A stretch of DNA of 64,000 nt. It comes from Effrenium voratum. Its lineage: Eukaryota; Sar; Dinophyceae; Suessiales; Symbiodiniaceae. Position 1 is the first letter of the stretch, and each line of letters opens with the position of its first letter. Positions 12,411 through 59,254 of the stretch are shown here, piece by piece. The position numbers and the translations under genes were made by a program. The DNA is taken from NCBI GenBank assembly GCA_963377175.1, contig CAUJNA010002924.1, forward strand, positions 707,968 through 771,967. The letters run 5' to 3'. Below the pieces are notes generated by a model. It did no database searches. It was given only the letters and a program-made list of their open reading frames with translations, and was not told where the DNA came from.

Positions 12411-12699
12411 GTTTAATCTGTTAAAGGCGAACTTGGTCCTCACTGCAAACTCTGAACATGTTGTGGGCTGATAAAGCCCAGAAATCCTCTCTACCTTGAG
12501 GAGGGTTAGCTGTCCCCCGATTCCATTTTGCAAGTCGATCTACCCTTTCTGCAGCCTGAAGGGGAAACCCGGAAAAAACTAGACCACGGTTGGCCCGAAA
12601 GCAGAACATCGCAAGCGAGGTCGGCTCAACGCTGCAGGATGCGTTCTTTTTCCCTACACGAAGCATTCGTGAAGCAAGCGCGAGACAGCACCAGGCAAG

Positions 12700-12905
12700 G
12701 TGCTCTGTGCAAGTTGCTCTGTGCAAGTTGCTCTGTGCAAGTTGCTCTGTGCAAGTTGCTCTGCGTAAGTTGCCCCTGCGCAAGTTGCTCTGCGCAAGTT
12801 GCTCTAGGCAAGGCGCTCTGCGCAAACTGGTCGGTGCAAGTTGGTCTGCGCAAGTTGCTCTGTGCAACTTGCTCTGCGCAAGTTGCTCTGCGCAAGTTGC
12901 TTTAA
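12700..12905. repeat. 14-bp tandem repeat (gctctgtgcaagtt)
   Basis: About 14 copies of a 14-bp unit with drift between gctctgtgcaagtt, gctctgcgcaagtt and gtcggtgcaagtt. Both strands are open in several frames, which is a property of the unit and not evidence of a gene. Confidence 0.9.
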
Positions 12906-12936
12906 AATGCAAGTTGCATCTTGCGACGCCCGCCCG

Positions 12937-13016
12937 CGGACCAGGGAGGAATCGAACCCGCGACCCGCCGGTTCCGGGAGCAGGCGCGCGAACCACGAGA
13001 CAACTCCCGAGGACCA
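12937..13016 (-). other. tRNA-like sequence (degenerate tRNA or SINE head)
   Basis: Read on the minus strand, this has an A-box-like tgtctcgtggttcgcgc followed about 35 bases later by an exact Pol III B box, ggttcgattcc. A five-base stem gggag/ctccc can close the outside. The T stem and acceptor do not pair fully, so it is probably not a working tRNA gene. It lies exactly between two unrelated tandem arrays (12700-12905 and 13035-13450), which fits a tRNA-derived retroposon head or a tRNA pseudogene caught in repeat expansion. Confidence 0.4.
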
Positions 13017-13034
13017 GTTCGAACAACAAAAGTC

Positions 13035-13450
13035 GCAAAAAACCTCGAGTTTTTGCACCTCGACCACGCCGATCCCCGCAGAGGGTTGCGCGGGCACCGC
13101 AGAAATCGCAAAAAACCATGGGTTTTTGCACCTCGACCACGCCGATCCCCGCAGAGGGTCGCGCGAGCACCGCAGAAATCGCAAAAACCATGCTTTTTGC
13201 ACCTCGACCACGCCGATCCGCGCAGAGGGTCGCGCAAGCATGTTAAAAATCGCCAAAAACCTCGAGTTTTTGCACCTCGACCACGCCGATCCCCGCAGAG
13301 GGTCGCGCGGGAACTTTAGAAATCGCAAAAAACCATGGGTTTTTGCACCTTGACCACGCCGATCCCCGCAGAGGGTCGCGCGGGAACTTTAGAAATCGCA
13401 AAAAACCAGGGGTTTTTGCACCTCGACCACGCCGATCCCCGCAGAGGGTC
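13035..13450. repeat. Approx. 73-bp tandem repeat with an internal palindrome in each unit
   Basis: Six units of 71-74 bp sharing cacctcgaccacgccgat and ccccgcagagggtcgcgcg. Each carries a hairpin of the form gcaaaaaa-N6-tttttgc whose arms are conserved while the centre varies: ctcgag in two units, ccatgg in two, ccatgc in one and ccaggg in one. Confidence 0.9.
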
Positions 13451-13559
13451 GATTTTCGTGTAGTGTCGTCGGCACTACCCCGCCGCCCTAAGAAGAGATT
13501 TTAACTCCTCGCAAGTCAATTGCACTTGACTCCTTGCACTTGCAACTTGCACTTGACTC

Positions 13560-13695
13560 CTTGCTTGTTTCAAGGAGTCATTGCAAGGAGTCATTGCAAG
13601 GAGTCATTGCAAGGAGTCATGGCAAGGAGTCATTGCAAGGAGTCATTGCAAGGAGTCATTGCAAGGAGTCATTGCAAGGAGTCATGAGAGCCATT
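13560..13695 (+). repeat. 13-bp tandem array ggagtcattgcaa, forward arm
   Basis: About ten near-identical copies of ggagtcattgcaa. The same unit appears in opposite orientation at 13905-14275, so the two arrays form a long fold-back structure. Confidence 0.9.
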
Positions 13696-13904
13696 GCAAG
13701 TTGCAAGGAGCCAAGTGCATGGAGTCAAGTGCAAGTCGCAAGTGCACGGAGTTAAGTGCAAGTTGCAAGTGCAAGGAGCCAAGTGCAAGGAGCCAAGTGC
13801 ATGGAGTCAAGTGCAAGTTGCAAGTGCATGGAGTCAAGTGCAAGTTGCAAGTGCATGGAGTCAAGTGCAAGTTGCAATTGCAAGGAGTCAAGTGCAAGTT
13901 GCAA
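13696..13904. repeat. Spacer array of caagtgcaagttg / catggagt words
   Basis: Between the two inverted 13-mer arrays lie irregular repeats of caagtgcaagttgcaagtgcatggagt, 10-27 bp periods. They share the ttgcaa and ggagt words with the flanking arrays, suggesting one ancestral unit. Confidence 0.8.
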
Positions 13905-14275
13905 TCCTTGCCATGACTCCTTGCAATGACTCCTTGCAATGACTCCTTGCAATGACTCCTTGCAATGACTCCTTGCAATGACTCCTTGCATGACTCCTTG
14001 CAATGACTCCTTGCAATGACTCCTTGCAATGACTCCTTGCAATGACTCCTTGCAATGACTCCTTGCAATGACTCCTTGCAATGACTCCTTGCAATGACTC
14101 CTTGCAATGACTCCTTGCAATGACTCCTTGCAATGACTCCTTGCAATGGCTCCTTGCAATGACTCCTTGCAATGACTCCTTGCAATGACTCCTTGCAATG
14201 ACTTTCATGATGATGATTCCTTGCAATGACTCCTTGCAATGACTTTCATGATGCTGATTCCTTGCAATGACACCT
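13905..14275 (-). repeat. 13-bp tandem array ttgcaatgactcc, inverted arm
   Basis: About 27 copies of the reverse complement of the 13560-13695 unit, ending in a degraded part with tttcatgatgatgattcc. The open frames on the minus strand read as CKESLQGVIARSH repeats and are not genes. Confidence 0.9.
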
Positions 14276-14279
14276 TGTA

Positions 14280-15347
14280 ATGACTCTCATGAGAACAACT
14301 CAAGTGAACCCAGCGGAAGAACCCTTCGCCATGCTTTCGGGAAAAAACAAAAAACAAACAGGATGGTTTTTTTGTCAGGGGATCCCAGCATGGTATTTCT
14401 GCGTTTTGGCTTCCCTTCGCCAACCCAAAATGGGGCCAGCCAACCAAAAAAGAACAGACACAAAGACCCACACTGACAGATCCCTCTCTCTGGGCTCCTC
14501 CCTCCTTCCTGTTTTTTTCTCCGCGGCCATGAAAATTCGGGCGGCCGCGCCTAAGGCCCAACCACTGGGACTGGACTCCGTGGCCGAGAGCAGCACCTCG
14601 ACCACCTGAACTCGCCACAGGACGTGGCCCTTGTGCCCGCTGGCGCCTAAGGGAAGCCAAGAAAATCTTAAAATCGGGTTCGTATAGGGGTTGAGTTGAT
14701 TTTCAGAATTTCTGGGTATGGGGCTTGAATTGATGCATGACCCATGTATGGCTCTTGTCTATTGACGATTAACCACGTGTGTTATTAACAATTAATATGC
14801 CTGTTATCATTGGTTGTGTTTTGTAGAAGTGGTAATCATCTTGGTTGACACGCCCTTGTGGCGGTTCGAAAGGCAAGCCAAAAAGAACTCTATTTCAATA
14901 TTAGAGCTTTAGAGACATGCCCTTTGCGGCTGGGCATGAAAGGGAAAACGGACACCCAGCTTCTTTCAAGATGGCAGTTTGTTGGATTTTCTCAATATGC
15001 AGCTTGTGGACAGGGGATTCATGCGCATCATGATTGAAACTGTCCGATTCGAAAATTCATCGCATGCGGAGTGCGAAAGGGCGCCGTTGAAGTGGCCTGC
15101 TTGCAGGGCTGGAAGAACTGCGAACGGTGGCTGCACCTTGGGCCCAACAATATCAACCCCCAAAACAAAGCTGTCCCTTGGTTTCCTCTTTTTTGAACAC
15201 ATACCAAAAGAACTACAAAGCGCCGTCCCTTGGTTTCCTACCACCTCCACACAAAACATGGGACTTCCCCCGCCTCGTCCACCTGCGGATCGAAATCATC
15301 GGCGCTCTCCTTGCGGGCTTCTCACCCGGAAACCATCCACTTGGGTT
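14280..15347. other. Gene-poor stretch
   Basis: Mixed unique sequence. A frame starting at 14979 is open for about 200 codons but runs straight through the MITE-like copy at 15348, so it is unlikely to be a real exon over its full length. Nothing else stands out. Confidence 0.4.
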
Positions 15348-26139: not shown

Positions 26140-27420
26140 TCGAATGGTCGTAGGTGCGCTAGCTTTCTGCCAGGCTGGTCGGTCGCTGCAATGGTGTTTG
26201 CTGCTGCTCTCTCTCTGTCGCCCTGGCCCTGCCTCGGCGGTTCTCGCGCTTGCTGCGAGGCTGTGGCTGCCGGGCTCTGGCTAGTCTGCACTGCGCTTCT
26301 TAGTGGTTTTCGAAGGTGCCGTTAGGCACCCTCCGAGCGTCCCTGTTCGGTCCCTTTTCCGTCGCTTTTTGCACGCCGTGCCACTGTGCTTGGGTCCAGC
26401 GGGGGGGCGCCCTGGCTGGCGTGCCTTAGCTGCTCTTGTGCTTGCTGCAGGGCTTTGGCTGCGAGGCCCTGGCGAGTCTTCTTAGTGGGTTTCGAAGGTA
26501 CCGTTAGGCACCCTCCAAGCCTCAATTTTCGGCTCTTTTTCGGTCCCTTTTTCCACGCCGTGCCACTGCGCTTGGGTCTAGCGGAGGGCGCCTTGGCTGG
26601 CTGCGCCCTGGCCGTGCCTTAGCTGCTCTTGTGCTTGCTGCAGGGCTCTGGCTGCGAGGCCCTGGCGAGTCTGGTTTCGAAGGTACCGTTAGGCACCCTG
26701 CAAGCCTCAATGTTCGGCTCTTTTTCGGTCCCTTTTTGCACGCCGTGCCACTGCGCTTGGGTCTAGCGGAGGGCGCCCTGGCTGGCTGCGCCCTGGCCGT
26801 GCCTTAGCTGCTCTTGTGCTTGCTGCAGGGCTTTGGCTGCGAGGCCCTGGCGAGTCTTCTTCGTGGGTTTCGAAGGTACCGTTAGGCACCCTCGAAGCGG
26901 CTCTTTTTCGGTCCCTTTTTGCACGCCGTGCCACTGCTTGGGTCTAGCGGAGGGCGCCCTGGCTGGCTGCGCCCTGGCCGTGCCTTAGCTGCTCTTGTGC
27001 TTGCTGCAGGGCTGCGAGGCCCTGGCGAGTCTTCTTCGTGGGTTTCGAAGGTACCGTTAGGCACCCTCGAAGCCTCAATTTTCGGCTCTTTTTCGGGGGG
27101 GGTCTAGCCGAGGGCGCCTTGGCTGGCTGCGCCCTGGCCGTGCCTTAGCTGCTCTTGTGCTTGCTGCAGGGCTTTGGCTGCAAGGCCCTGGCGAGTCTTC
27201 TTAGTGGGTTTCGAAGGTACCGTTAGGCACCCTGCAAGCCTCAATTTTCGGCTCTTTTTCGGTCCCTTTTTGCACGCCGTGCCACTGCGCTTGGGTCTAG
27301 CGGAGGGCGCCCTGGCTGGCTGCGCCCTGGCCGTGCCTTAGCTGCTCTTGTGCTTGCTGCAGGGCTTTGGCTGCGAGGCCCTGGCGAGTCTTCTTTGTGG
27401 GTTTCGAAGGTACCGTTAGG
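26140..27420 (+). repeat. Satellite array, left block (unit approx. 180-195 bp)
   Basis: About seven head-to-tail units, each with ggctctttttcggtcccttt, ttgcacgccgtgccactgcg, cttgggtctagcggagggcg, ctggctggctgcgccctggc, cttgctgcagggctttggct and gtgggtttcgaaggtaccgt in that order. Spacing of the gcacgccgtgcc word is 181-186 bp, with one truncated unit near 27090. The block stops at ...accgttagg, exactly where the foldback element starts. Confidence 0.95.
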
Positions 27421-27431
27421 CCCAGTCCTTC
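27421..27431 (+). repeat. Left terminal inverted repeat of the foldback element
   Basis: cccagtccttc, exact reverse complement of 34715-34725. Preceded by the gg target duplication at 27419-27420. Confidence 0.75.
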
Positions 27432-27690
27432 TTTAAGCGCTGGTTTCAGCACTGATTCGCGAATCAGCGCTGGTTTGACAAGGAAAAGTAGGGTTTTTGT
27501 GTCGGATCAGCGCTGATCCACTCGAGCAAGCGCTGAAACCTTCGAATAAGCGCCGGTTTCAGCACGGATTCGTCGAATCCACGCCAAGATGGCAAGGATC
27601 CAAGTTGACACTGATTCGACGAATCCTCGTCACGTGACAGGGCTTCGATGAGCCCTTGTTGGGTTGACACTGATTCGGCGGGTCAAACTG
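27432..27690 (+). repeat. Subterminal cgaatcctcg / agcgctga motif cluster, left
   Basis: Contains repeated gattcg, cgaatc, agcgctga and cgaatcctcgtca words, several of them palindromic (for example tgattcgcgaatca). The same words occur just inside the right end at 34620-34715. Clustered subterminal motifs like these are typical transposase-binding sites in DNA transposons, which is an inference here. Confidence 0.55.
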
Positions 27691-28329
27691 CAAACAAAAA
27701 ACAGGAGCTTAAGCTTCCTTGGGCCTGCGAAGGGAATGCGTGATGAGTTAAATTTGACAATTTTGGAATGAGCAACATCAGTATTATTTTACATTAGCAC
27801 GTGCGTGCTCTTGACCAATTGGCTGTGAGCATCCTGTAACTGATTCGTTTTGAAAAGAAGGCTGAGTTTGTGAGCACATGGACCATGAAAGGAGCTGCGG
27901 TGATGCAGGCGCACTTTGTCTATCGCGAGCGAGCTGCGCAGTCCTGCGCCCGGTCAATCCTGCTGCAAAAGTGGAACTTACGGAGCTGCCTCCTCTTCTT
28001 TTTTGTTTGCTTTTGCCACGAGCCCGCCAGGAAAAAGAGGTTGGGCTATTTTAGGCGGTCTCGCTTTCTCTTTCTCTTTCAGGCTCTCAAGAAGTTGTGC
28101 ATCCTAACGTCAGTAGAGTATCCATCTTACCTCCATATATTTTCCTAATCCTTTCTCACATTAGGTGCCACAGGGTGGACAAGTTTATGCGCTAGACGCG
28201 GCAGAAAGTTTTGACTTCTGACAGCCGGAATCACGGCTTGTTGCGTCGGTTTGCTGTCCACTTAGGCCGCAGCCGTGAAGTGCGAAGGAGACGAAAAGGA
28301 AAGGAGCGCAGAGCTCCTCCTTGTGTTCC

Positions 28330-28862
28330 TAAAAGGAGAGAGAAAGAGAAAGAGAAAGAGAACGAAGAGAATAATACAGAAGAACAGCGGAAGAGGAAGA
28401 GAAAGAACACGAGCAAGACAAAAAGAAAGGTAGCGAGAAAAAGAAAGATAAAGAACAAAAGACAGAGAAAAAAGAGAAAAAGAGAAGGAGACAAAGAGAG
28501 AAAGAGAGAAAGAAAGAAAATAAAAGAAAAGAAAGAAAGACAGAAAGAAAGACATAAAGACGGAAAGAAAGAAAGACAGACATAAAGAAAGAAAGCAAAG
28601 CAACAAAGACAGAAAGAAAGAAAGACAGAAAGAAGGAAATAAAGAAAGAAGGAAAGAAAGAAATAATGAAAGAAAGAAAGAAAGAAAGACAGAAAGACAG
28701 ACAGAAAGAAAGAAGTAAATGAAAGAAATAAAGAACTAATGACATAACGAAGGAACAAGGAGAACGACAGACAGACAAACAGACAGACAGAAAGAAAGAA
28801 AGACAGAAGTAAAGAAAGAAACAAATAAAGAACTAATGACATAACGAAAGCAAATGGCGAAC

Positions 28863-28896
<34 letters not shown>

Positions 28897-29210
28897 AATA
28901 AAGAAAGAAAGAAAAATAAAGAAAGGGAAAGATAAATACATAATCATTTACAGAAAGAAAGACATAGCAAGGAATAAATAAATCAATAAAGAAAGAAAGA
29001 CACAATCAATGAGTAAAGAAATGAATGAATAAACAAGAAATGTTTGAATAAAGACATGAATAAATACAATAAAGAAAGAAAGAACGGAAGACACAGAGAA
29101 CGAGAGAAATACCAAGACAAAGAGAAAGAGAGATACAAAGACGAAGATAAAGAGAAAACGAGAGAAAGATAAAGATAAATAGAGAGAGAGAGAGAGAGAA
29201 ACAGAGAAGG
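28330..29210. repeat. Polypurine (AAAG/GAAA)n tract in left arm
   Basis: About 880 bp, nearly all purine on the plus strand, with agaaagaaag and gacagaca words. Mirror-type purine tracts of this length can form triplex structures. The FLSFFLS-type frames on the minus strand are low complexity, not genes. Confidence 0.9.
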
Positions 29211-29234
29211 GGAAAACAAGCCTGCTGCAAACTA

Positions 29235-29625
29235 TCGTTCTTATAGTTTTGAAACGTCTGCCAACCGGCTTCGCAGGCTTCACGGGTGTACAAACTGTTC
29301 CCTTTCTTTTACTTTTGTCGTTGGTTGATGTTTGGTACTTGGACCAAGCCCTGGGACCCTCCCATTTCCCCAGCATTGCCCTGAGATTGCTTGCGGTGTC
29401 TCTCCTGTTTTTGTTCCTTCGCTTGATGTTGATTTTCTTTGTGCCTTTGCAGGCGTCACCTGGCCAACATGTTCTAGTTATGTTCAAAACACTGTTCATC
29501 ACCTTTGCTTTCCCTTTTCTCATGGGAACTTTGTTATCTTCATTGCGTTTGCCTTCTTTGGGTTTGGTGGCGTGGAAATTTACGAAAACATGATGAACCA
29601 GAAAAAAAGGGCTGCTGGCTTTCAA
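29235..29625 (-). CDS. Conserved basic open frame in left arm, unknown
   Basis: A frame of about 125 codons encoding a strongly basic, lysine- and arginine-rich peptide (contains KPKEGKRNEDNKVPMRKGKA and INIKRRNKNRRDTASNLRAM). An almost identical frame is present in the right arm at 32868-33270 in mirror orientation, with only a few replacements. No family recognised. High arm identity alone explains the conservation, and the opposite strand is also open (a hydrophobic frame), so selection on this protein is unproven. Confidence 0.25.
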
Positions 29626-29894
29626 TTGGTCCCTTGGCCAGGGTGGATGGTGATGGAATTATGCCAGATAGTATGAACATATTTTTTGCAGGCGTCCCAC
29701 TTAAAACATGATATGGGTCAAATTGTTTTTTGCAAAATTTGATCAACGATGCGTTGGATCAAAATTGATCAAACATGAATTGCTGGGAAGCACGTGGAAT
29801 TGAGAGCGAACCCAAAAATGGAACGCTAACTAGTTTTCCCTGTGTGGTTGCGAGTTCTAGGGAAAATCATGTTGAGCCATCTTAATTGAAATCA

Positions 29895-30040
29895 AAACCC
29901 CTCGAAAAGAGGGTGTCAACCCCTCGAAAAGAGGGTGTCAACCCCTCGAAAAGAGGGTGTCACCTACGGCAACTGTAACCGCGACTCCTTGGGAAGAGGG
30001 TGTCACTCTTGGCCCAACACCCCTTGAGAAAAGGGTGCCA
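29895..30040. repeat. Tandem cccctcgaaaagagggtgtca repeats, left arm
   Basis: Three exact copies of acccctcgaaaagagggtgt followed by two diverged ones (cccttgagaaaagggtgcca). Each unit is a small palindrome (ccctcgaaaagaggg). Mirrored at 32480-32615. Confidence 0.85.
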
Positions 30041-30229
30041 TCCATGATAATTATTTCGTCGAAATACTTTAACACATAAAGACATGTAGTCACCAATTTG
30101 TCTGACAAAAGATTGGGCTGCAAAATGTTGAGACCACAGAAAGTTGTAGTCCAAATATGTTCCTTAATTGTATTGCATTTGTCAAAAGATGTTCAACTAT
30201 CCCAAATTGTAATTACCAACTTATTTGTC

Positions 30230-30960
30230 AAGCATTTGGCCTGCAAATGCTTGAGGCCGCCGCACATGTGTAGTCCAAATATGTTCCTTAAATAACAAGT
30301 TGCTGTCAATTCTTTGGCCCGCAAATGTTTGAGGCCACAAGAGGCTATAACCCCGGATTGTCCCTTTCTCTATTTTTGAATTTGTTGGCCCACAAAAATG
30401 TGTAGTCACCAATCCCTTTTGTCATACATTTGGCCTGCAACATGTTGAGGTCACAGCGCATTGTAGTCCGGAAATGTTGCTTAACTATACTTTCAACATA
30501 TGTTGGCCCATAAACATGTAGTCACATGTTTTGTCAAGTTGTTGGCCTGCTAACTTTTGAGGCCACAGTTGCAGTCCAACAAATGCTCAATGTCAAGCAT
30601 TTGGCCTGCAAATGTTTGAGGCTGCCGTAAATGTGTAGTCCAAATATGTTCCTTAAATAGCAAGTTGCAGTCACCAATTTGTCTGTCAAATCTTTGGCCC
30701 GCAAATGTTTGAGGCCACAAGAGGCTATAACCCCGGATTGTCCCTTTCTCTAATTTGTTGGCCCGCAAACATGTGTAGTTACCAATCCCTTTTGTCATAC
30801 ATTTGGCCTGCAACATGTTGAGGTCACTGGACATTGTGGTCCGGAGATGTTCCTTAACCGTACTTTCGAAATATGTAGGCCTATAAACATGCAGTTACAT
30901 GTTCTGTCACATATTTGGCCTGCAAACTTTTGAGGCCACAGGAAGTTGTAGTCCACAATT
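30230..30960. repeat. Approx. 370-bp higher-order repeat, left arm
   Basis: The word ttggcctgcaaatgtttgagg or a variant occurs at about 30236, 30316, 30429, 30541, 30599, 30693, 30801 and 30913. The fifth to eighth copies repeat the first to fourth at 363-377 bp, so four different sub-units of 58-113 bp form a higher-order unit that is present twice. Confidence 0.75.
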
Positions 30961-31574
30961 CTCAATTAACACACATGTAGCCACCATTGTGTTTTTGTTC
31001 AACTATGTGTCCTGCAACATTATGGGGCCACCCACACAAAAAAGTAAAACGGTTAGGGGCATCACCCGGGAATATGATTGTTAAATAGTTGTTAAATTTT
31101 AACATCCATTTAACATCATTTAACATCCAATTACCTTTAAAAGTAAATGACAATTGATGTTAAATGTTGTTAAATTGATGTTAAAATTTAACATCAATTT
31201 AACATGTATGGGAAATATAATTTAGGGACATCCCTGGATTACAATTTCCTGTGGGCTCAACCTGTTGAAGGCCACATATTTGACAGAAGGGAATTTCTGG
31301 GATGCGTTTGCAGGCCAACTATTTGACAAACCATGTGACTACATGTGTATGGGCCAGCATATGTTGAAGGTATAGTTAAGGAACATCTCTGGACTACAGT
31401 TTCCTGTGGCCTCAACATTTTGCAGACCAAATGTATGACAAAGGACATTGGTGACTACACAATTTCATGGGCCAACAAATTTAAGAAAAGAAAGGGACAT
31501 TCCTGGGTTACAGTTTCTTGTGGCCTCAAACATTTCAAAGCCAAGGATTTGACCGTTCAATTGGGAACATAGTT
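30961..31574. other. Loop of the foldback element
   Basis: Sequence between the mirrored arms. It contains relatives of the ggcctgcaaa sub-units and a cluster of ttaacatc words at 31085-31205, including a 37-bp perfect palindrome. No open frame of interest. Confidence 0.65.
31168..31204. repeat. 37-bp perfect palindrome near the centre of the foldback
   Basis: Eighteen-base arms (tgttaaattgatgttaaa and its complement tttaacatcaatttaaca) flank a single central A. It lies within a cluster of ttaacat words and about 80 bp from the geometric centre of the large inverted repeat. Confidence 0.85.
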
Positions 31575-32867
31575 GGACTACAACTTCCTGTGGCCTCAAA
31601 GGGTTTGCAGGCCAAATATGTGACAGAACATGTAACTGCATGTTTATGTGCCTACATATGTTGAAAGTATAGTTAAGGAACATCTCCGGACTACAATGCG
31701 CTGTGACCTCAACATGTTGCAGGCCAAATGTATGACACAAGAAATTGGAAACTACACAATTTTATGTGCCAGCAAATTCCAAAAACAAAACGGAGTTACA
31801 GTCTCTTGCGGCCTCAAACATATGCAGGCCAAAGCTTTGACAAACAAATTGGTGACTGCAATTGTTGAATTAAGGACGATATTTGGACTACAAATTTACG
31901 GCGGCCTCGAACATTTGCAGGCCAAATGCTTGACATTGAGCATTTGTTGGACTGCAACTTCCTGTGGCCTCAAAAGTTAGCAGGCCAAAAACTTGACAAA
32001 ACATGTGACTACATGTCTATGGGCCAACATATGTCCAAAGTACGGGTAAGGAACATCTCTGGACCACAATGCGCTGTGACCTCAACATGTTGCAGGCCAA
32101 ATGTATGACAAAAGGGATTGGTAACTACACATTTTTGTGGGCCAACACATTCAAAAATAGAGAAAGGGACAATCCGGGGTTATAGCCTCTTGTGGCCTCA
32201 AACATTTGCGGGCCAAAGAATTGACAGCAACTTGTTATTTAAGGAACATATTTGGACTACACATGTGCGGCGGCGTCAAGCATTTGCAGGCCAAATGCTT
32301 GACAAATAAGTTGGTAATTACAATTTGGGATAGTTGAACATCTTTTGACAAATGCAATACAATTAAGGAACATATTTGGACTACAACTTTCTGTGGTCTC
32401 AACATTTTGCAGCCCAAACTTGTGTCAGACAAATTGGTGACTACATGTTTTATGTGTTAAAGTATTTCGACGAAATAATTATCATGGATGGCACCCTTTT
32501 CTCAAGGGGTTTTGGGCCAAGAGTGACACCCTCTTCCCAAGGAGTCGCGGTTACTCGTGGGTGACACCCTCTTTTCGAGGGGTTGACACCCTCTTTTCGA
32601 GGGGTTTTGATTTCAATTAAGATGGCCCAACATGATTTGCCCTAGAACTCGCAACCACACAGGGAAAACTAGTTAGCGTTCCATGTTTGGGGTTCGCTCT
32701 CAATTCCACGTGCTTCCCAGCAATTCATTTGTGATCAATTTTGATCCAACGCATCGTTGATCAAAATTTGCAAAAACAAGTTGACCCATATCATGTTTTA
32801 AGTGGGACGCCTGCAAAAAATATGTTCATACTATCTGGCATAATTCCAGCACCATCCACCCTGGCCA

Positions 32868-33270
32868 ATGGACCAATTGAAAGCCAGCAACCCATTTTTT
32901 TTGGTTCATCATGTTTTCATAAATTTCCACGCCACCAAACCCAAAGAAGGCAAACGCAATGAAGATAACAAAGTTCCCATGAGAAAAGGGAAAGCAAAGG
33001 TGATGAAAAGTGTTTTGAACATAACTGCGACATGTTGGCCAGGTGACGCCTGCAAAGGCACAAAGAAAATCAACATCAAGCGAAGGAACAAAAACAGGAG
33101 AGACACCGCAAGCAATCTCAGGGCAATGCTGGGGAAATGGGAGGGTCCCAGGGCTTGGTCCAAGTACCAAACATCAACCAAAGACAAAAGTAAAAGAAAG
33201 GGAACAGTTTGTACACCCGTGAAGCCGGCGAAGCCGGTTGGCAGACGTTTCAAAACTAGAAGAACGATAG
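32868..33270 (+). CDS. Conserved basic open frame in right arm, unknown
   Basis: Mirror copy of the frame at 29235-29625, starting with an ATG at 32868. The deduced basic peptide keeps the same length and nearly all residues, including the CWPGDACKGTKKINIKRRNK stretch. The frame runs on into the CTCT tract, where it becomes low complexity. As with the left copy, function and translation are unproven. Confidence 0.25.
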
Positions 33271-33298
33271 TTTGCAGCAGGCTTGTTTTCCCCTTCTC

Positions 33299-33299
<1 letters not shown>

Positions 33300-33351
<52 letters not shown>

Positions 33352-34082
33352 TTATCTCACTTTGTCTTTGTCTTTGTTTCTCTCTTTCTCATTGTCTTTT
33401 TATTTGTCATGTTCTTTCTCTTTCTCTCTTGCTCTCTTGCAATCTTTATCTCTTTATCTTTCTCTCTTTGCCTCTTTCTCTCCTTCTCTCCTTCTCTCTT
33501 TCTCTTTGTCTTGTTATTCCTTGCTTTCTAAATTCATGTCTTGATTTATTTATTTATGTTTTCTTTCTTTAGGTATTTATGTTTGTCTTTCTTTATTTAT
33601 AGTTATTTATGCATGTCTTTCTTTTTGTTGATTTGTTTCGTCATTTCTTTCTTCATTTATTTCATTGTTTTCTGTATTGGTTTATCTCTTTATATCATTG
33701 TGTTTTTTATTTCTTGAGTTATTTCTTTCTTTATGTCTTCCTTTCGTTGTTTATGTTCCTTCTTTGTTTCGTTATTTATGTGTTTAGGTATTTCTTTCTT
33801 TATTTATTTTTCGTTATTTCGTTATTTCTTTCTTTCTTTCTGTCTTTCTTTCTTTCTTTCTTTTTTATTATGTTTTCTTTCTTTCTGTCTTTTTGTCTTT
33901 CTCTCTCTCTTTCTATCTTTCTTTCTTCATCTTTCTCTGTCTCTTTCTCTTGCGCATTTTTCACTTCTTTCTCTTTCCCGCTCTCTTGTTGTTTTTATCT
34001 TTCTCTTCCTCTTCATATTTCCCTTTCTCTTCTTTTTCTCTTCTTTTTCTTTCTCGTCATCTCTCTCTCTCTCTCTCCCCTT
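33300..34082. repeat. Polypyrimidine (CTTT/CTCT)n tract in right arm
   Basis: Nearly 800 bp of C and T on the plus strand, mirroring the purine tract at 28330-29210. Frames reading FLSFFL are low complexity. Confidence 0.9.
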
Positions 34083-34619
34083 TTTGGAACAAGGAGGAGC
34101 CCTGCGCTCCTTTTGGAGCTGACAGCCCTTGCCTTGCGCCTTGCAGCAAGTGTTCTTTTCATCTCCTTCGCGCGTCACCGCTGCGGCCTGGGAGTGGAAA
34201 CAGGAATGCCATTTGTTTTTTGAGCGGGGTGAAACATGCAAATGTCTGAAACTGATTAAGTGGGCACAAAGCGCGCAAGTGCAAGCTTTCAGGAGCTAGC
34301 GACTACCTTCTTTTCGCGTACAATCAAGCACATTTAGGAGCAAGCGGCTTCCTGATTTTTGCTTACGGGCTATAGAGACTGTAGGAGGAGCCCAAGGCAT
34401 CCTACGCTTTGTGCTAATGACAAAACATGTCACGCAACTAATCGTCTGAACAAACTCTGTTTCCAGCGGATTCTGCAACAGTATATAAAGCGAATATCAT
34501 GCGAAGATGTGCCCGAGGCATCTGCGATATGGAAATGGAAAGTCATGCCATGCAACAAAACTCAGCGAATATACCACGAGCATGCGCAGCTGACCCACGT
34601 CGGTTGACACGGATCCACG

Positions 34620-34714
34620 TCAACCCGAATCCTCGTCAAGCGTTTTTTACACGAATCCTCGTCAACTCGAATCAGCGCTGAAAAAAACGAATCCTCGCCA
34701 TCGAATCCTCGCCG
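34620..34714 (+). repeat. Subterminal cgaatcctcg motif cluster, right
   Basis: Five cgaatcctcg or cgaatcagcgctga words within 95 bp, matching the left subterminal cluster at 27432-27690. Confidence 0.55.
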
Positions 34715-34725
34715 GAAGGACTGGG
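34715..34725 (-). repeat. Right terminal inverted repeat of the foldback element
   Basis: gaaggactggg, exact reverse complement of 27421-27431, followed by the gg duplication at 34726-34727. Confidence 0.75.
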
Positions 34726-36596
34726 GGCACCCTCGAAGCCTCAATTTTCGGCTCTTTTTCGGTCCCTTTTTGCACGCCGTGCCACTGCGCTTGGGTCTAG
34801 CGGAGGGCGCCCTTGCTTTGGCTGCGAGGCCCTGGCGAGTCTTCTTAGTGGGTTTCGAAGGTACCGTTAGGCGCCCTGCAACCCTCAATGTTCGGTCCCT
34901 TTTCCGTCGCTTTTTGCACGCCGTGCCACTGCGCTTGGGTCCAGCGGGGGGGCGCCCTGGCTGGCTGCGCCCTGGCCGTGCCTTAGCTGCTCTTGTGCTT
35001 GCTGCAGGGCTTTGGCTGCGAGGCCCTGGCGAGTCTTCTTAGTGGGTTTCGAAGGTACCGTTAGGCACCCTGCAAGCCTCAATTTTCGGCTCTTTTTCGG
35101 TCCCTTTTTGCACGCCGTGCCACTGCGCTTGGGTCTAGCGGAGGGCGCCCTGGCTGGCTGCGCCCTGGCCGTGCCTTAGCTGCTCTTGTGCTTGCTGCAG
35201 GGCTTTGGCTGCGAGGCCCTGGCGAGTCTTCTTAGTGGGTTTCGAAGGTACCGTTAGGCACCCTCGAAGCCTCAATTTTCAGCTCTTTTTCGGTCCCTTT
35301 TTGCACGCCGTGCCACTGCGCTTGGGTCTAGCGGAGCTGCTCTTGTGCTTGCTGCAGGGCTTGGCTGCTTGGCTCTTCTTAGTGGGTTTCGAAGGTACCA
35401 CCTGCAAGCCTCAATGTTCGGCTCTTTTTCGGTCCCTTTTTGCACGCCGTGCCACTGCGCTTGGGTCTAGCGGAGGGCGCCCTGGCTGGCTGCGCCCTGG
35501 CCGTGCCTTAGCTGCTCTTGTGCTTGCTGCAGGGCTTTGGCTGCGAGGCCCTGGCGAGTCTTCTTAGTGGGTTTCGAAGGTACCGTTAGGCACCCTGCAA
35601 GCCTCAATGTTCGGCTCGGCTCTTTTTCGGTCCCTGTTTGCACGCCGTGCCACTGCGCTTGGGTCTAGCAGAGGGCGCCCTGGCTGGCTGCTGCCCTGGC
35701 CGTGCCTTAGCTGCTCTTGTGCTTGCTGCAGGGCTTTGGCTGCGCGACCCTCAAAGCCTCAATTTTCGGCTCTTTTTCGGTCCCTTGCTTTGGCTGCGAG
35801 GCCCTGGCGAGTCTTCTTAGTGGGTTTCGAAGGTACCGTTAAGCACCCTCCGAGCGTCCCTGTTCGGTCCCTTTTCCGTCGCTTTTTGCACGCCGTGCCA
35901 CTGCGCTTGGGTCCAGCGGGGGGGCGCCCTGGCTGGCTGCGCCCTGGCCGTGCCTTAGCTGCTCTTGTGCTTGCTGCAGGGCTTTGGCTGCGAGGCCCTG
36001 GCGAGTCTTCTTAGTGGGTTTCGAAGGTACCGTTAGGCACCCTGCAAGCCTCAATTTTCGGCTCTTTTTCGGTCCCTTTTTGCACGCCGTGCCACTGTGC
36101 TTGGGTCTAGCGGAGGGCGCCCTGGCTGGCTGCGCCCTGGCTGGCTGCGCCCTGGCCGTGCCTTAGCTGCTCTTGTGCTTGCTGCAGGGCTTTGGCTGCG
36201 AGGCCCTGGCGAGTCTTCTTCGTGGGTTTCGAAGGTACCGTTAGGCACCCTCGAAGCCTCAATTTTCAGCTCTTTTTCGGTCCCTTTTTGCACGCCTTGC
36301 CACTGCGCTTGGGCTAGCGGAGGGCGCCCTGGCTTTGGCTGCGAGGCCCTGGCGAATCTTCTGAGTGGGTTTCGAAGGTACCGTTAGGCACCCTCCGAGC
36401 GTCCCTGTTCGGTCCCGTTTCCGTTCGCTTTTTGCACGCCGTGCCACTGCGCTTGGGTCCAGCGGGGGGGTGCCCTGGCTGGCTGCGCCCTGGCCGTGCC
36501 TTAGCTGCTCTTGTGCTTGCTGCAGAGCTTTGGCTGCGCCCTGGCGAATCGTCTTAGTGGGTTTCGAAGGTACCGTTAGGCACCCTGCAAGCCTGC
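34726..36596 (+). repeat. Satellite array, right block
   Basis: About ten units in the same orientation as the left block, resuming in exact phase after the foldback. Unit length varies from about 140 to 210 bp because of internal deletions and one duplicated ctggctggctgcgcc segment near 36125. Two unit subtypes alternate: one with caagcctcaattttcggctc, the other with ccgagcgtccctgttcggtc. Confidence 0.95.
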
Positions 36597-37337
36597 CGAA
36601 TGATAAGCACACCCGCTCAAGAGCACCCGCTCGGCACTGCACACATGCCTGCCAAACGATACGCACACCCGCTCAAGAGCGCCCGCTCACACTGCACACG
36701 TGCCTGCCAAATGATAAGCACGCCCGCTCAAGAGCACCCGCTCAGCACTGCACACATGCCTGCCAAATGATAAGCACACCCGCTCAGCACTGCACACATG
36801 CCCGCCAAATCATAAGCGCACCCGCTCAGGAGCACCCGCTCAGCACTGCACACACGCCTGCCACATGATAAGCACACCCGCTCAAGAGCAACCGCTCAGC
36901 ACTGCACACATGCCTGCCAAATGATAAGCACGCCCGCTCAGCACTGCACACATGCCTGCCAAATGATAAGCGCACCCGCTCAAGAGCACCCGCTCAGCAC
37001 TGCACACACGCCTGCCAAATGATAAGCACACCCGCTCAGCACTGCACACATGCCTGCCAAATGATAAGCACACCCGCTCAAGAGCACCCGCTCAGCACTG
37101 CACACACGCCTGTCAAATGATAAGCACACCCGCTCAAGAGCAACCGCTCAGCCCTGCACACACGCCTGCCAAATGATAAGCACACCCGCTCAGCACTGCA
37201 CACATGCCTGCCAAATGATAAGCACACCCGCTCAAGAGCACCCGCTCAGCACTGCACACACGCCTGTCTAATGATAAGCACACCCGCTCAAGAGCAACCG
37301 CTCAGCACTGCACGCACGCCTGCCAAATGATAAGCAC
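36590..37337 (+). repeat. 57-bp / 42-bp tandem repeat
   Basis: Units read tgccaaatgataagcacacc, cgctcaagagcacccgctca and gcactgcacacatgcc. A shorter version lacks the internal 14-15 bases (aagagcacccgctc), so 57- and 42-bp units alternate over about 14 copies. It adjoins the last satellite unit. Confidence 0.95.
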
Positions 37338-50776: not shown

Positions 50777-50841
50777 TGCAGGAGTCAATGGATGTGACTT
50801 CACCCTGGCCGCTCGATGAGCGAATGTACCAGCAAGAGCAG
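50777..50841 (+). CDS. Q-rich protein, exon b
   Basis: Acceptor tctgacag, frame reading QESMDVTSPWPLDERMYQQE, ending in phase 0 before gcaacg, a GC donor. Joins the large exon as EQ-GWNPEQLQQQ. Confidence 0.5.
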
Positions 50842-50945
50842 GCAACGTGTCTCCACACATGGCATGCTTACGCAGCGAACTGGTTGTGATGGCTGATGTT
50901 GCGTGCAAGTCTGCATCCAACAGTAATTTCTTTGACATCCCGCAG

Positions 50946-52954
50946 GGGTGGAACCCTGAGCAGTTGCAGCAGCAACACGATGCTGCTGCACAACTGGCGC
51001 AGAGCTCATTGCCCCATGTGATGCAGCCACTGCAGCAACTGCCTGAGGCAGTCTCGCCGAACGAGCCACATGGTGGCCAGTTGCAACAAGCTTCTGGCTA
51101 TCCCCAGCAACAGCAGCAGCAGCAAGAGCGGCAGCAACAATCTGTTCCGCCACAGCCCATGGCCCCGTTGCAATCTGCTACTGCAGGTGGCCCCCAGCAT
51201 CAACAGCAGCAACTGCAGCAGCATCGAGATGCTCATCTACAGCCCTCAGCCCCGTTGCAGCCAGAGCAGCAGCAACAGCAGCAGCATCCCGCGGCCCCGT
51301 TGCAACAGCAGCAGCAAAATGCTCCGCTACAGCCCTCGGCCCCATTGCAGCCAGCCACTACTGCGCCACAGCAACAACAACAATCTGCTCCGATGCAGCC
51401 CGCAGCCTTGCTGCAGCATCACCAGCAGCAACAGCAGCCACAGCAGCAGCAGCAAGCTGCCCCGCTGCAACCCGCAGCCCCGTTGCAATCTGCAACTGCA
51501 GGTTGCCCCCAGCATCAACAGCGCCAGCAGCCTGCCGCCCCACTGCAGCCCACAGCCCCGTTACAATTTGCCCAGCATCAACAGCAGCTGCAGCAATCTG
51601 CTACTGGTTGCCCCCTGCAGCAGCAACCACGCCAAGCTGCCCCGTTGCAGCCCACAGCCCCGTTGCAGCAGCAGCAGCAGCAGCACGATGCCCCGTTACA
51701 GCCCCAGCAGCAACACCAACAGACCTTGTCGCAACAAGCGTCTCTCAATGGCCAGCAGCAACAGCAGGCGCTGCAGCAGCAGCAGCAGCAGCAGCAAGCT
51801 GCTCCACTTCAGCCCGCAGCCCCGTTGCAACCTGCTAGTTGCCCCCAGCATCAACAGCAGCAGCAGACGCAGCAAGATGCTCTGCCACACGCAGTGGCCC
51901 CGCAGCAACCATCCACTTCCGGCTGCCCTCAGCAGCAGCAGCATCAGCAGCAGCAGCAGCAAGCTGCCCCACTTCAGCCCGCGGCCCCGTTGGATGCCCC
52001 ACCACATCCGGTGGCCCCACAGCCGCAATCCACTTCTGGCTGCCCCCAGCAGCAGCAGCAGCAGCAGCAAGCTGCACCACTTCAGCCCCCAGCCCCGTTG
52101 GATGCTCCACCACATCCGGTGGCCCCGCAAGCTGCTCCACTTCAGCCTGCAGCCCCGCCCAGCATCAACAGCAGCCACACGCAGTGGCCCCGCAGCAGCA
52201 ATCCACTTCCGGTAGCCCTCAGCAGCAGCAGCAGCAGCAAGCTGCCCCACTTCAGCCCGCAGCCCCGTTGCAGCCAAGTTGCCCCCAGCAGCAGCAGATG
52301 CAGCTAGATGCGCCACACGCAGTAGCCCCGCAGCAGCCCGGCTGCCCTCAGCAACAGCAGCAGCCGCAGCAGCAGCCTCCAGCCACGAAGCAGGAGGTCT
52401 TCGCATCCGACCCCTTGCAGCAGCATCAGCAACACACAACACAGAACGCAAATGCCGCAGTTGCCGATGCACTCCTTCGCGAAAAAGCAGCAGGCCCCTC
52501 AGAGGACCCTGATGCGCAGCTGAAGGCTATGGGCTGGGGAGTTCCAAAAACCTGCCGGCCTGACGGTGGCAATACTGCGGCTCAGGCTCACCAGCAGCAG
52601 AAGCAGCTTGCTATGGCCCAGGAGCCGCCTCAGGTGCTCAATTCTTTAAAGTCGCCGGTCGCGCTGCCGCCATCAGCAGGGCAGTACAGCAGGAGGGCGG
52701 CGGCCAACTTGATTGGGCGCCTGCGAGCAAACCCTCAGCGCGTCAAAGAAACGCCTCTAGCCGCCTTGGTGTTTGATGAGGGCCGCAAATCAGAGCTCAT
52801 TGACCTTCTTTGCCAACACAGCGGCGACCTGCAGCAAGCAGGCCTAACATTGCAAGTGCACGAGGAACACAGCTCCTCGCAAGCGCATCGCAAACGCGCA
52901 GTGCGATGGACCAAAAAGCAGATGGAAGACGCGTACGGGGCAGACGCAGCGCAG
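50946..52954 (+). CDS. Q/P-rich protein, large CAG-repeat exon with internal frameshift
   Basis: Begins GWNPEQLQQQHDAAAQLAQS after a cgcag acceptor. Most of it encodes glutamine runs separated by AAPLQPAAPLQ-type units. Near 52155 the frame must change (from codons starting at multiples of 3 to +2) for the reading to continue as PQHQQQPHAVAPQQQSTSG; the local sequence looks like a repeat unit that lost part of its middle, an out-of-frame deletion. After about 52390 the protein is complex: EVFASDPLQQHQQHTTQNAN, then ANLIGRLRANPQRVKETPLA and a basic KRAVRWTKKQMEDAYG segment known to me from other dinoflagellate proteins. Ends at a GC donor in phase 0. Likely a disordered, possibly nuclear protein. 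Confidence 0.6.
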
Positions 52955-53541
52955 GCAAATCTCCCCACCCGCGTCGCTGACTCTTGTTTCTTCAACCTTC
53001 GCAACACACGAACGAAGCCTGAACACGACACGGGCAACACAAGAGCGCAGCCTCAATGAGTGAAGCCCACAAACCCCGCTTGTTCGACGCCCCGCTCGCT
53101 GCCTTGGCCTGTTTCTCTGGAGCCGTCATGGGAGCACAAAGAAGCAACGGGCATGGTGGAAGATGATGAGAACTGCCCAGGCCGGGTATATTCTCATTCT
53201 CCCACATGTGTGGTTTGCGTGCTGCTGCAGGTGGAATTGTTTACTTGATGGCGCAGAAAGAAGACGAAGAGGCATCTGCCTCGAGTCATCGCAGCTTTGT
53301 CACGCACAACAGTCTCACCACACACCCATTGCGATAGTCTCACAGTGTTTCCAAACATGTCTCTACGCAGTGTGTTTACATGCGTGCCTAAGGAAAAACA
53401 TTGGCGACTACGCAGAGCAGAGTCGATGACACGCAAGCAGCGGACGTCGCAATGTTGATGCCGCTTTGTTTGCATTCGCTCAGATTTTATATGCGTGCAA
53501 TTTGCGCGCAGCATTTGATGACATGCGTGCATGTTAGGCAG
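52955..53541 (+). other. Probable GC-AG intron of the Q-rich gene
   Basis: Starts gcaaatctcc and ends atgttaggcag; both neighbours are in phase 0. The frame also stays open to a TGA at 53057-53059, so an unspliced end is the alternative. Confidence 0.4.
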
Positions 53542-56095: not shown

Positions 56096-56386
56096 GCAAA
56101 GCTAGCTGGCAAACAGATGCCAGTGAAGGCAGTCGCTTGTCTATGTTTGCAACGTGTCTACTGCCAAGAGAGTTTTGTTTAAGTTCCTTGGAAGTTTGAG
56201 CAGTTTGTGTAACTTCATGCGCAACTAGCGAAGGCGGTCACTTGCAGCGATGTTTGAAATGTGTCTACCGATTCACGCACTTTCCTAGACCATCCAAAGT
56301 TTGAACAAGGTGTGCAACTTTGTGTGTCGGCTATTGATTTGTGAGGGTGTTTATGTGTAGCGTTTTGAAAATTGAAGCGTGCCCAG
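56096..56386 (+). other. Probable GC-AG intron (291 bp)
   Basis: gcaaag to gtgcccag. Contains two copies of gtttgagca-aggtg/agtttgtg-caactt words near 56196 and 56300, an internal short duplication. Confidence 0.4.
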
Positions 56387-57436
56387 GAATTTGCTTTCTG
56401 GAAGGGTGACATGGAGGCACACATGACGGCGCATTTACTTCAACGCGGGAGACGGTGGTATCGATGCAGCCGATGCTGCGACTTTTGCATGTGCACTGCA
56501 GACCTGCGTGCTCCTGAGCTGTCCTGGGGTGACCTTACAGCGAACGCTTTATGGAAACACACGCTCACAATGACGGACCACAACGATCCTTCGCCTTGGT
56601 GTCAAATTGCAGATTTTCAGAAAGATAGACGGCTGCTTGACCTCATGCATGTGGTACACTCAGGCGTGCTGCGCGACCAAATTGCGTCTATGCTCTTTGA
56701 CGTGTTCGAGGAAGGGTCGCTGCGCAAGTTCTACGGGATGCCTGCCGCAGCAACTGTTGACGAGGTGCTGTGCGTGGTGAGCTTTCACGCCCAACGCTGG
56801 GCAAATGACAACAGCATGGAGTTGCGCATCGGCACTTTGACTTCAGCTGCGCTTGGAAGGCATGAGCACTCTCGTTGGCCATATCCTGAGCTGTCCTCGC
56901 GTGTCAAAGCTGCCAAAACCAGAACATTATTTGCCTTTTGCGTGTTTTTGATGACGCGCCTTGCACACCCACGTCATGTGCCCCTGGACATTTTGCCACA
57001 CGCGAAAGCGCGAGCCGTTTGTTTTTGGGCCTTGGACGTTGCCTTGTCCATCTGGAACAAGTCAACTCTGTGTGTGCTCAGCGTTGAGGAAACCGTGGTC
57101 TCAGTGTGGCTCTGCAAATTGCACTCCACTGCCTACCAATGGCTGTCGGTGAAGTGCATGCGTGACCGCAGGCTCTTGTACAAAGTGCGCCCAAAAACGC
57201 ACTACTTTTGTCACATCACTGATTGGGTGGCTCAAAGCCACTTCAATCCGCAGACCCTCAGCAATTTTTGCGATGAGGATTTTATGGGCAAGACCCGAAA
57301 CATTGCGGCTGCCTGCCACGGATCCACTTACATGACAAACTGGGCGCGAAGGTATGCCCTGAAACGAGGCCTTGCGTGGACAAAGAGAGCGGCTTTTTTT
57401 GACAACACGCTTGCATGGACGTTTGCGTATCTATAG
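56387..57436 (+). CDS. DDE-transposase-like protein, exon 3 with the second acidic motif
   Basis: About 350 codons to a TAG at 57434-57436. Contains a C-x2-C and further cysteines (WYRCSRCCDFCMCTADLRAP), a zinc-ribbon-like cluster that interrupts the catalytic fold in related proteins; DRRLLDLMHVVHSGVLRDQI, where D-x-M-H matches the second catalytic aspartate of CACTA/Plavaka-type transposases; and RPKTHYFCHITDWV followed by NFCDEDFMGKTRNIAA, where the acidic E-D-F before a K/R-rich helix could hold the third catalytic residue. Family assignment is from memory of motifs, not from a search. The frame is intact here. Confidence 0.6.
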   Translation, partial: EFAFWKGDMEAHMTAHLLQRGRRWYRCSRCCDFCMCTADLRAPELSWGDLTANALWKHTLTMTDHNDPSPWCQIADFQKDRRLLDLMHVVHSGVLRDQIASMLFDVFEEGSLRKFYGMPAAATVDEVLCVVSFHAQRWANDNSMELRIGTLTSAALGRHEHSRWPYPELSSRVKAAKTRTLFAFCVFLMTRLAHPRHVPLDILPHAKARAVCFWALDVALSIWNKSTLCVLSVEETVVSVWLCKLHSTAYQWLSVKCMRDRRLLYKVRPKTHYFCHITDWVAQSHFNPQTLSNFCDEDFMGKTRNIAAACHGSTYMTNWARRYALKRGLAWTKRAAFFDNTLAWTFAYL

Positions 57437-58655
57437 GTGCAACATTCATGCAAAGGATGCGTGATTATATATATATATATGAGGACGAACCTTTTGGTCT
57501 TGTTTAGGCATATGAACGCCCGTAAAAACAGGTGTGCAGTTTTTGTTTGCCAACGCACGCAAGTAGCTTGTTGATATGTTTGTGAACTTCGGCAGGATTA
57601 AACCTTTGCTTAAACGTTTGCATGTTGATAATTCTGTGGATCGAGGTGTGCTGTCTGGACACAAAATTACAAACCTTTGTGGCGGCATAGTTATTTGCCC
57701 ACGTTGATCCAACAATCAGTATATTTGAGGGATTGTTTGCATTACTTGCCACGAGACACGCGTAGCATGATTGATGCTCTGTTGTGCGTCCCGCAGTACT
57801 GAGCACGTGGTAGCTTGCGCTCCCAAAATAGAAGAGTGCCAACTTGTGATTATAGGCACATCCTTGAAAGTTTGTGCGCTTGGCTTTGCTGGCGCAGGCG
57901 GTGTGTTGTCGCTACACTCCGTGCAGTTAGCCAAATGGGCGCGCTTAGCAGTCTCAAGTTTAAGCTAGCAAACACGGAAAACGCTCGTGCACGCTTCAGC
58001 TGCCGAACAAACGCTCGACTTCTTTTTTTCCTGCGGTAGAGTGTTTTAAAAACGCTCAACCGCCAATTTGGGCTGTCCAGGTTCGCTGGGACACGCCCTT
58101 CAAGCTTGGCAACCACACGAGTTTGCCCCTAGATTCATCGGCAGTTTCTGCGGAAGGTGGAGGTTCCCGGGCCCCTTGCACCAGCTGCGCCCTGCCGACA
58201 AGGAGCTTGAAGCGGAACCACGATCAAGTCGTGAAGGACGCAAACTGCCAAGACCAGGTTCCAGGCGGTGCGAAAAACGCCCCGTGCAGCATGAACTGTT
58301 GCAGCCCTTGGGTTTCACATCCGCCCTCCAAAAGTCTGGTTGCGTTGCTAGGACTCCGGCCCCGGACCCGGAGGTTCGCTGGCAGAAAGTGTTGTATTTC
58401 TCAACACATGCAAACGAGGTGGGGTAATGAAAGGATGACAAGATGAACACATAAGCTAGATGCCACCCTGACATTGTTGCAAACCAGTTGCGCTTCACCA
58501 ACATCAAAATTGATCTTCTTCAGCAAAAACTCAGAACCATATTTAAACAGTTGGTTCTTAGGGATTGTGTTCCAGCAAAAAAAACGAGACGGAGGGAGGA
58601 AACTTTAAAATATGACAACCATAGCTTGGAGGACGCTTCTTTTCCCCTTGTCTCC
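57437..58655. other. Mostly unique, one weak candidate
   Basis: AT run at 57463-57480. Several aaaacgctcg/acgctcaac words at 57975-58045 recall those at 41850-41915. A plus frame at 58160-58425 reads LHQLRPADKELEAEPRSSRE and VRWQKVLYFSTHANEVG, protein-like but without defensible borders. Confidence 0.35.
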
Positions 58656-58952
58656 CTATCTGATCTCTCTCTCTCTCTCTCTTTTTCTCTTCTTGTTTCC
58701 CTTCCCCACTCTCTTCTTGTTTTCCCTGTCTCTCTTCCTATGTCTGTTCCCCTTTCTCGTTCTCCTGCGATTTATCTTTCTCTTCTCTTCCTCTTTCTCT
58801 TTCTCCTTCTCCTTTCTTCTCTTTCGCATTCTCGTTTCATGGTCCTGTTTCCCTCTCTCCGTAGCATCATCTTCCTCTTTCTCTTCCTCTGTCTGTCTGT
58901 CTGTCTTTCATTTTTCTTTCTTTATTTATTTCTTTCTTCTTTTCTTCTTTCT

Positions 58953-59028
<76 letters not shown>

Positions 59029-59215
59029 CTCTTTCCTGCTGCCTATATTTGTTATGTTTCTGTTTATTAAAACAGTGATTTATTATCCTTCTTCTCTTTC
59101 TTTCTTTCTTTATTTCTTTCTTGACTTTTATCTTTATGTATTTTCTTTCTGTATTTATTTCTTTCCTTCTATCTGTTCTTTCTTTCTTCTTTTATTTCCC
59201 GCTCTCGCTCCCTCT
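58656..59215. repeat. Polypyrimidine (CTTT/CTCT)n tract
   Basis: Over 500 bp of C and T including a pure cttt run at 58973-59030. Similar in composition to the tract in the right arm of the foldback element. Confidence 0.95.
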
Positions 59216-59254
59216 CTCCCCTAAAGCTCGCGAAAGTGAACGCATGCAAAAAGA

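Follow-up and report, generated by a model that had tools for sequence, protein, structure and literature searches.

A probable non-autonomous DNA transposon with a giant internal palindrome in a satellite array of the dinoflagellate Effrenium voratum

Foldback transposons are a structural kind found in several superfamilies; most seem to be Mutator elements, with exceptions (PMC4079207; this and all other cited articles are drawn on in excerpt). Here we describe a 7,305-bp insert at positions 27421 to 34725 of a 64,000-nucleotide stretch of Effrenium voratum (assembly GCA_963377175.1, contig CAUJNA010002924.1, positions 707,968 to 771,967 of the forward strand; hereafter the window), most of which is one huge near-palindrome. 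Like Tetris of Drosophila virilis, this element is a foldback, non-autonomous and without coding capacity, and it carries internal tandem repeats; as here, the excerpted account of Tetris reports an association with satellite DNA and no autonomous partner (PMC4079207). Satellite DNA is, however, the target of our element and a product in Tetris, whose long terminal inverted repeats (TIRs) reach the termini and whose target duplications measure 8 to 10 bp, whereas our element has an 11-bp TIR, an internal palindrome, and a 2- to 3-bp duplication (PMC4079207). Galileo, of the P superfamily, also has long, internally repetitive inverted repeats, and its authors suggest recombination and conversion among copies; unlike our element, it has terminal TIRs of about 0.3 to 1.2 kb, 7-bp duplications, and a known transposase (PMC3573991). 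Dinoflagellate introners resemble the element in host group, in having short inverted ends and direct repeats a few bases long, and in lacking a transposase, but they sit in introns, whereas our element sits in a satellite and contains a giant palindrome (PMC7789003, PMC10666404). The open-access literature searched yielded no dinoflagellate foldback or palindromic element, and foldback transposons seem to be undescribed in this group. The insert very probably belongs to a family of non-autonomous cut-and-paste (class II, TIR) DNA transposons of a dinoflagellate. It is a real multicopy transposon with an unusual internal giant palindrome, its general sort being known and its layout unusual.

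The element lies in a satellite array at about 26.3 to 36.6 kb of the window, with unit lengths near 185 to 210 bp. The satellite is interrupted after GTTAGG at 27420, the next satellite sequence past the insert is CACCCTCG, and the array continues at 34726 with GGCACCCTCG. The insert starts with CCCAGTCCTTC and finishes with GAAGGACTGGG, exact inverted ends (11/11 bases) whose sole exact occurrences in the 64 kb are those at 27421 to 27431 (plus strand) and 34715 to 34725 (minus strand). With up to two mismatches, the 11-mer matched 17 times in the window against 17.15 expected; since such loose matches are no commoner than expected, the TIRs stand out only through the satellite break. Because that break fixes both boundaries independently, the exact 11-base inverted match is not due to chance. 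The flanks are GG/GG, the GG of 27419 to 27420 being repeated at 34726 to 34727, and the duplication can be read either as GG or as GGC with a 10-bp TIR, because C is both the first base of the element and the base that follows in the satellite. A short duplication was observed at this one site only, and a 2-bp match arises by chance 1 time in 16. When 150 bp of each flank were joined minus one GG, the resulting empty site aligned across the junction to other units of the satellite (best alignment, 315 columns, 92.4%, 16 gaps); the intact target site occurs 15 times in the array, as 13 copies of GTTAGGCACCCT and two one-base variants. The clean insertion and the 11-bp TIRs, both proposed earlier from the sequence alone, held to the exact coordinate, and removal of the insert and one GG restored the empty site. 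The outermost element sequences at the two termini are CCCAGTCC and GGACTGGG. A different minisatellite, with nested periods of 14, 42, and 56 bp, occupies 36591 to 37337 and begins immediately where the satellite ends on the right.

Other copies were sought by using predicted proteins as a proxy for DNA; the contigs that encode them were distinguished only by their listed size in bases. With the element ends as query, 3 proteins among 283 candidates, on three other contigs, crossed an end of the element. The open reading frames (ORFs) of P0050 (...IIQKH followed by PQSFRRGF) and P0051 (...SVSAKT followed by QSFRRGF) enter via the right end, and that of P0052 (...DAEHH followed by PSPSLSAGF) enters via the left. 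All three stop matching at the element end and continue into unrelated flanks, which match neither one another nor the satellite (E up to 1); the P0052 flank gave one weak match, at 24.3 kb (E of 0.26). The match of P0052 to the element covers 31 residues, all identical, and its flank by itself has no satellite match. The contig of P0052 has 132,300 bases, the same as that of P0047, a protein from the arms described below, and the two were taken as one contig. Counting the window, at least four insertion sites were recovered, and seven contigs besides the window's carry pieces of the element. The absence of any other copy with the same ends had been named beforehand as grounds for rejecting the element; by protein proxy, its ends appear at three further sites. 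The element combines exact terminal inverted repeats with the occurrence of the same ends at unrelated sites, as expected of a class II TIR transposon.

By codon logic, and reading into the element, the base adjoining the terminus is C in P0050, A in P0051, and either C or T in P0052, compared with G and C in the window; since it varies among copies, GG is not a fixed target. The outermost C of the element is kept in 3/3 of the other end ORFs. Two alternative delimitations were set aside: a CMCT-like CA..TG terminus, given that the outermost C recurs in those ORFs, and a TTA target with a GGCCCAG end, given that GG does not precede CCC in them. In P0052, the element copy ends a 240-residue ORF of unassigned family, perhaps a disrupted gene.

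From left to right, the element and its duplicated flanks comprise the following features.

27419 to 27420, no strand: left copy of the GG target duplication (or GGC); direct sequence reading and empty-site alignment.
27421 to 27431, plus strand: left TIR, CCCAGTCCTTC; exact match to the other end, recurring in P0052 with another flank.
27432 to 27720, no strand: left subterminal region; seven GATTCG/CGAATC sites, with facing pairs in three places.
27721 to 28263, no strand: left end segment, not homologous to the right one; 33 to 51% identity in the global arm alignment.
28264 to 31078, plus strand: left foldback arm; inverted-repeat alignments.
28335 to 29215, plus strand: purine-rich tract of the left arm; purine content per 100 bp.
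29222 to 29895, plus strand: unique DNA of the left arm; arm comparison, its minus-strand ORF being the probe that found other copies.
29896 to 29962, plus strand: 22-bp minisatellite in three copies; the right-arm counterpart has two copies at 32562 to 32606.
30073 to 31010, plus strand: palindromic minisatellite of the left arm with a higher-order period of about 373 bp; self-alignment and lag analysis.
31079 to 31204, no strand: apex hairpin, the junction of the two arms; self-complementarity and fold score.
31205 to 34189, minus strand: right foldback arm; inverted-repeat alignments.
33290 to 34085, minus strand: pyrimidine-rich tract of the right arm; purine content per 100 bp.
34190 to 34595, no strand: right end segment, not homologous to the left one; global arm alignment.
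34596 to 34714, no strand: right subterminal region; five GATTCG sites in a single orientation.
34715 to 34725, minus strand: right TIR, GAAGGACTGGG; exact match, recurring in P0050 and P0051 with other flanks.
34726 to 34727, no strand: right copy of the GG target duplication; direct sequence reading.

The hexamer GATTCG/CGAATC clusters at the ends of the element. It occurs 25 times in the 64 kb, with 12 occurrences in the terminal 300 and 130 bp (7 in the first 300 bp and 5 in the last 130 bp) and 13 in the other 63,570 bp, and 300-bp windows outside the element contain 2 at most. A longer form, GAGGATTCG, was found five times, always close to the element ends. Comparable subterminal repeats occur in several DNA transposons (PMC8978399). 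Outside the arms, the outer ~840 bp on the left and ~535 bp on the right showed, TIR aside, 33 to 51% identity or no alignment, and the two end segments have in common only the TIR and the subterminal motif.

Between these segments, 28264 to 34189 form a single inverted duplication, a near-palindrome of about 5.9 kb with a hairpin apex near 31140. The main arm alignment pairs 28300 to 30955 with 34113 to 31574 at 84.7% over 2,680 columns, with gaps; ungapped arm blocks include 610 bp at 95%, 490 bp at 97%, and 133 bp at 97%, and the outermost blocks are 35 bp at 89%. In a global alignment, identity per 100 bp was 51 to 81% in the purine/pyrimidine tract, 90 to 100% in 29122 to 30621, 73 to 90% in 30622 to 31021, and 49% in the final 100 bp before the chosen midpoint, where the apex hairpin is located. 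This hairpin (31079 to 31204) is self-complementary at 82%, and the DNA fold of 31060 to 31225 has a z score of −9.34. Purines make up 76 to 91% of each 100 bp over 28300 to 29199 and 8 to 25% over 33300 to 34099. The middle of the arms is 97% alike, and the unique arm DNA at 29222 to 29890 differs from the right arm by 20 mismatches in 668 sites. The arms further contain the 22-bp minisatellite and the palindromic minisatellite, whose ~373-bp higher-order period is the strongest lag in each arm. The sequence-only reading had described inverted arms of about 2.7 kb holding unique DNA, a purine/pyrimidine tract, palindromic minisatellites, and a higher-order repeat; the arms and each of these components were located, while the arm size is nearer 2.9 to 3.0 kb, with the arms meeting in the apex hairpin. 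A second long pyrimidine tract, without element flanks or arms, lies at 58600 to 59230; it was rejected as a second copy, as it matches in simple sequence only.

With the ORF of the unique arm DNA as query, 7 proteins among 19 candidates, all from ENA and encoded on five contigs, were retrieved at 92 to 99% identity over 63 to 94% of the query. These ORFs extend at their tails into the purine/pyrimidine tract, where the two arms are unlike each other, and 7/7 match one side at 97 to 100% and the other at no more than 52% among the matches listed. Three are left-arm ORFs (P0043, P0044, and P0047) and four are right-arm ORFs (P0045, P0046, P0048, and P0049), and the contigs of 128,871 and 483,476 bases each carry one left and one right arm, making two further contigs with paired arms. 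The tract of a given side varies little from copy to copy, whereas the left and right tracts of one copy are unlike each other; for this reason, the family seems to have expanded only once the tracts had diverged. P0047 joins sequence of about 30.2 kb to that of about 29.49 kb of the window's arm, and its copy seems to carry an internal deletion. In viral contigs, the arm-protein search gave 81 pattern matches, none of which was confirmed, and a 20-base subterminal pattern had no match; phage records likewise gave no match.

Divergence between the arms is uneven. The arm middles differ at 38 of 1,313 sites, compared with 43/296 and 14/69 in the adjoining stretches (Fisher P of 1e-12 and 1e-7), the latter stretch being only about 11% divergent in a local alignment. 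One residue, N or S before KVP, is present in both states in left and right arms alike. The unevenness suggests, but does not show, gene conversion from arm to arm; the neighbors of the arm middles, which are repeat-rich or short, may simply change faster. Mosaics in P0044 and P0045 were rejected as proof of conversion, because both can be derived, with no exchange, from a single ancestral state (N, R, K, and R at four diagnostic residues). A further idea, which we regard as doubtful, is that the ~6-kb hairpin interior is a maintained feature and not a scar, with each copy using one arm as the template to repair the other by conversion, and with the foldback itself, or double-stranded RNA (dsRNA) made from it, serving the element. 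If so, a maintained foldback (or dsRNA) would, for example, keep cargo intact or steer small-RNA silencing.

The element contains no detectable transposase domain, in agreement with the earlier impression that none was visible: a Pfam search of its six frames returned no match and no transposase-like domain, and apart from low-complexity frames it has no open frame of transposase size. Pfam likewise gave no match above the curated cutoff for the three end ORFs, and none for ten ORFs of the window, where two weak matches fell far below it. In the ORF of the unique arm, the arms differ at 13 of 453 sites (3, 4, and 6 at the three codon positions), and 8 of the 11 changed codons are nonsynonymous. 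On these small numbers, the ORF behaves as non-coding sequence, with no sign of constraint at the protein level. No Rfam family reached the gathering score in the window, nor was a spliced-leader relic found there (best, 15/21); such a relic would have been further evidence for a dinoflagellate host.

Several observations weigh against the interpretation as a transposon family. No complete second copy came to light: the others are represented solely by predicted proteins, none has both ends, no second target duplication was seen, and the contigs are not proven to be from one species. Automatic alignment of P0052 did not stop at the element end but continued through the flank as a gapped match of 46% identity. 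For motif clustering, the Fisher P of 3e-20 is too good, as the 430 bp of terminal windows were chosen after the motif had been seen. Finally, no transposase was found by Pfam in this copy, and no autonomous partner emerged, the genome not having been searched for one.

Unsplit hairpin reads are a known source of large inverted repeats, and such a read, or a misjoined inverted copy, could have produced the foldback as an assembly artifact. This is extremely unlikely: the arms differ (84.7%, with gaps), the same difference between left and right tracts is found on other contigs, and the exact element ends recur elsewhere. The arm ORFs on five contigs, two of them with both arms, are a strong argument against an artifact. 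An introner-like element, that is, an intron-making dinoflagellate transposon caught in a satellite, is very unlikely as well, although the host group is the same, P0052 shows a copy within an ORF, and Amoebophrya introners have 8- to 20-nucleotide inverted repeats, 3- to 5-nucleotide direct repeats, and no transposase (PMC7789003). Against this reading, the sole complete insertion interrupts a satellite, not an intron, and the element is 7.3 kb long, with a giant palindrome and a duplication of 2 to 3 bp. It is quite unlikely that we are dealing with an autonomous or recently autonomous member of a known superfamily (e.g., CMCT/EnSpm or PIF/Harbinger-like), its transposase too diverged for Pfam or lost and its coding region replaced by the palindrome. 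CACTA elements typically have short ends with subterminal repeats (PMC8978399), and a 2- or 3-bp duplication fits both CMCT (2 to 5 bp) and PIF/Harbinger-ISL2EU-Spy (PHIS; 0, 2, or 3 bp) elements (PMC12730594). Nevertheless, the lack of a Pfam match and of a transposase-size frame other than low-complexity ones, the non-coding behavior of the arm ORF, and the CCC..GGG ends, with the outermost C kept in the other end ORFs, speak against such a member.

The same features limit the placement of the non-autonomous family that we favor. Its 2- or 3-bp duplication appears too short for Mutator or P (Galileo) elements, which make 7- to 10-bp duplications in the excerpted accounts (PMC4079207, PMC3573991), and with GG/GG flanks it is not the TA of Tc1/mariner (PMC10741241); CMCT and PHIS would fit on duplication size. 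CACTA/EnSpm elements share with ours short TIRs, direct and inverted subterminal repeats, and 3-bp duplications (2 to 5 bp in the wider clade), but end in CACTA/G, or mostly in CA..TG in the wider CMCT clade, whereas our element ends in CCC..GGG and lacks a transposase domain (PMC8978399, PMC10741241, PMC12730594). Thus, the short duplication at one site and the subterminal repeats agree with CMCT and the end motif does not, and the CCC ends weaken that placement. PHIS relatives, whose 0-, 2-, or 3-bp duplications are compatible with ours (PMC12730594), are likened to the element on duplication size, not on terminal motif, and no transposase domain links them. The CCAGTC of the TIR may resemble the end of rice mPing. 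Helitrons, which lack TIRs, insert between A and T, and have 5'-TC..CTRR ends (PMC10741241), differ from the element, which has an 11-bp TIR and CCC..GGG ends. With respect to the foldback class, the element has long inverted repeats with internal tandem repeats, but these do not reach the termini; unlike in classical foldbacks, the two end segments that flank the arms share no homology apart from the TIR. We classify the insert as a non-autonomous TIR element with a foldback-like architecture and assign no superfamily. The earlier view that it fits no nameable family stands at the superfamily level, whereas the foldback is a known structural kind (PMC4079207).

We propose that a transposase encoded elsewhere would act in trans, binding the GATTCG-type subterminal sites and the 11-bp ends, and would excise the element and integrate it at a target site cut with a stagger of 2 or 3 bp. 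The interior would be a passenger: an inverted duplication centered on a small hairpin, the present apex, probably gave rise to the near-palindrome, which lies inside end segments that are not duplicated, and gene conversion may keep the middle of the arms alike. Dinoflagellate genomes are huge and repeat-rich, and this family presents exact ends, an empty site, and, as read from predicted proteins, paired arms on several contigs. Dinoflagellate chromatin is unusual in its packing; the family would let one ask how it copes with 6-kb palindromes and whether these are preserved by conversion between the arms, and the motif-rich ends offer a handle for finding the transposase.

Elsewhere in the window, a cluster of other minisatellites at 12695 to 14286 includes facing 13-bp units around 13905 (CAAGGAGTCATTG then TCCTTGCAATGAC) and may represent an inverted structure of smaller size. 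At 50820 to 53059, several frames contain long, overlapping ORFs with abundant CAG repeats (polyglutamine/proline type). A 355-amino-acid ORF at 56369 to 57436, with no Pfam match above the cutoff, belongs to a multicopy dinoflagellate protein family and matches 42 protein clusters, which marks the window as dinoflagellate DNA. Its named matches, at 47 to 60% identity and in two cases over only about one-third of the query, are from Durusdinium trenchii (two), Cladocopium goreaui, and EukProt Skav217556, presumably Symbiodinium/Fugacium kawagutii; its closest match is at 99%.

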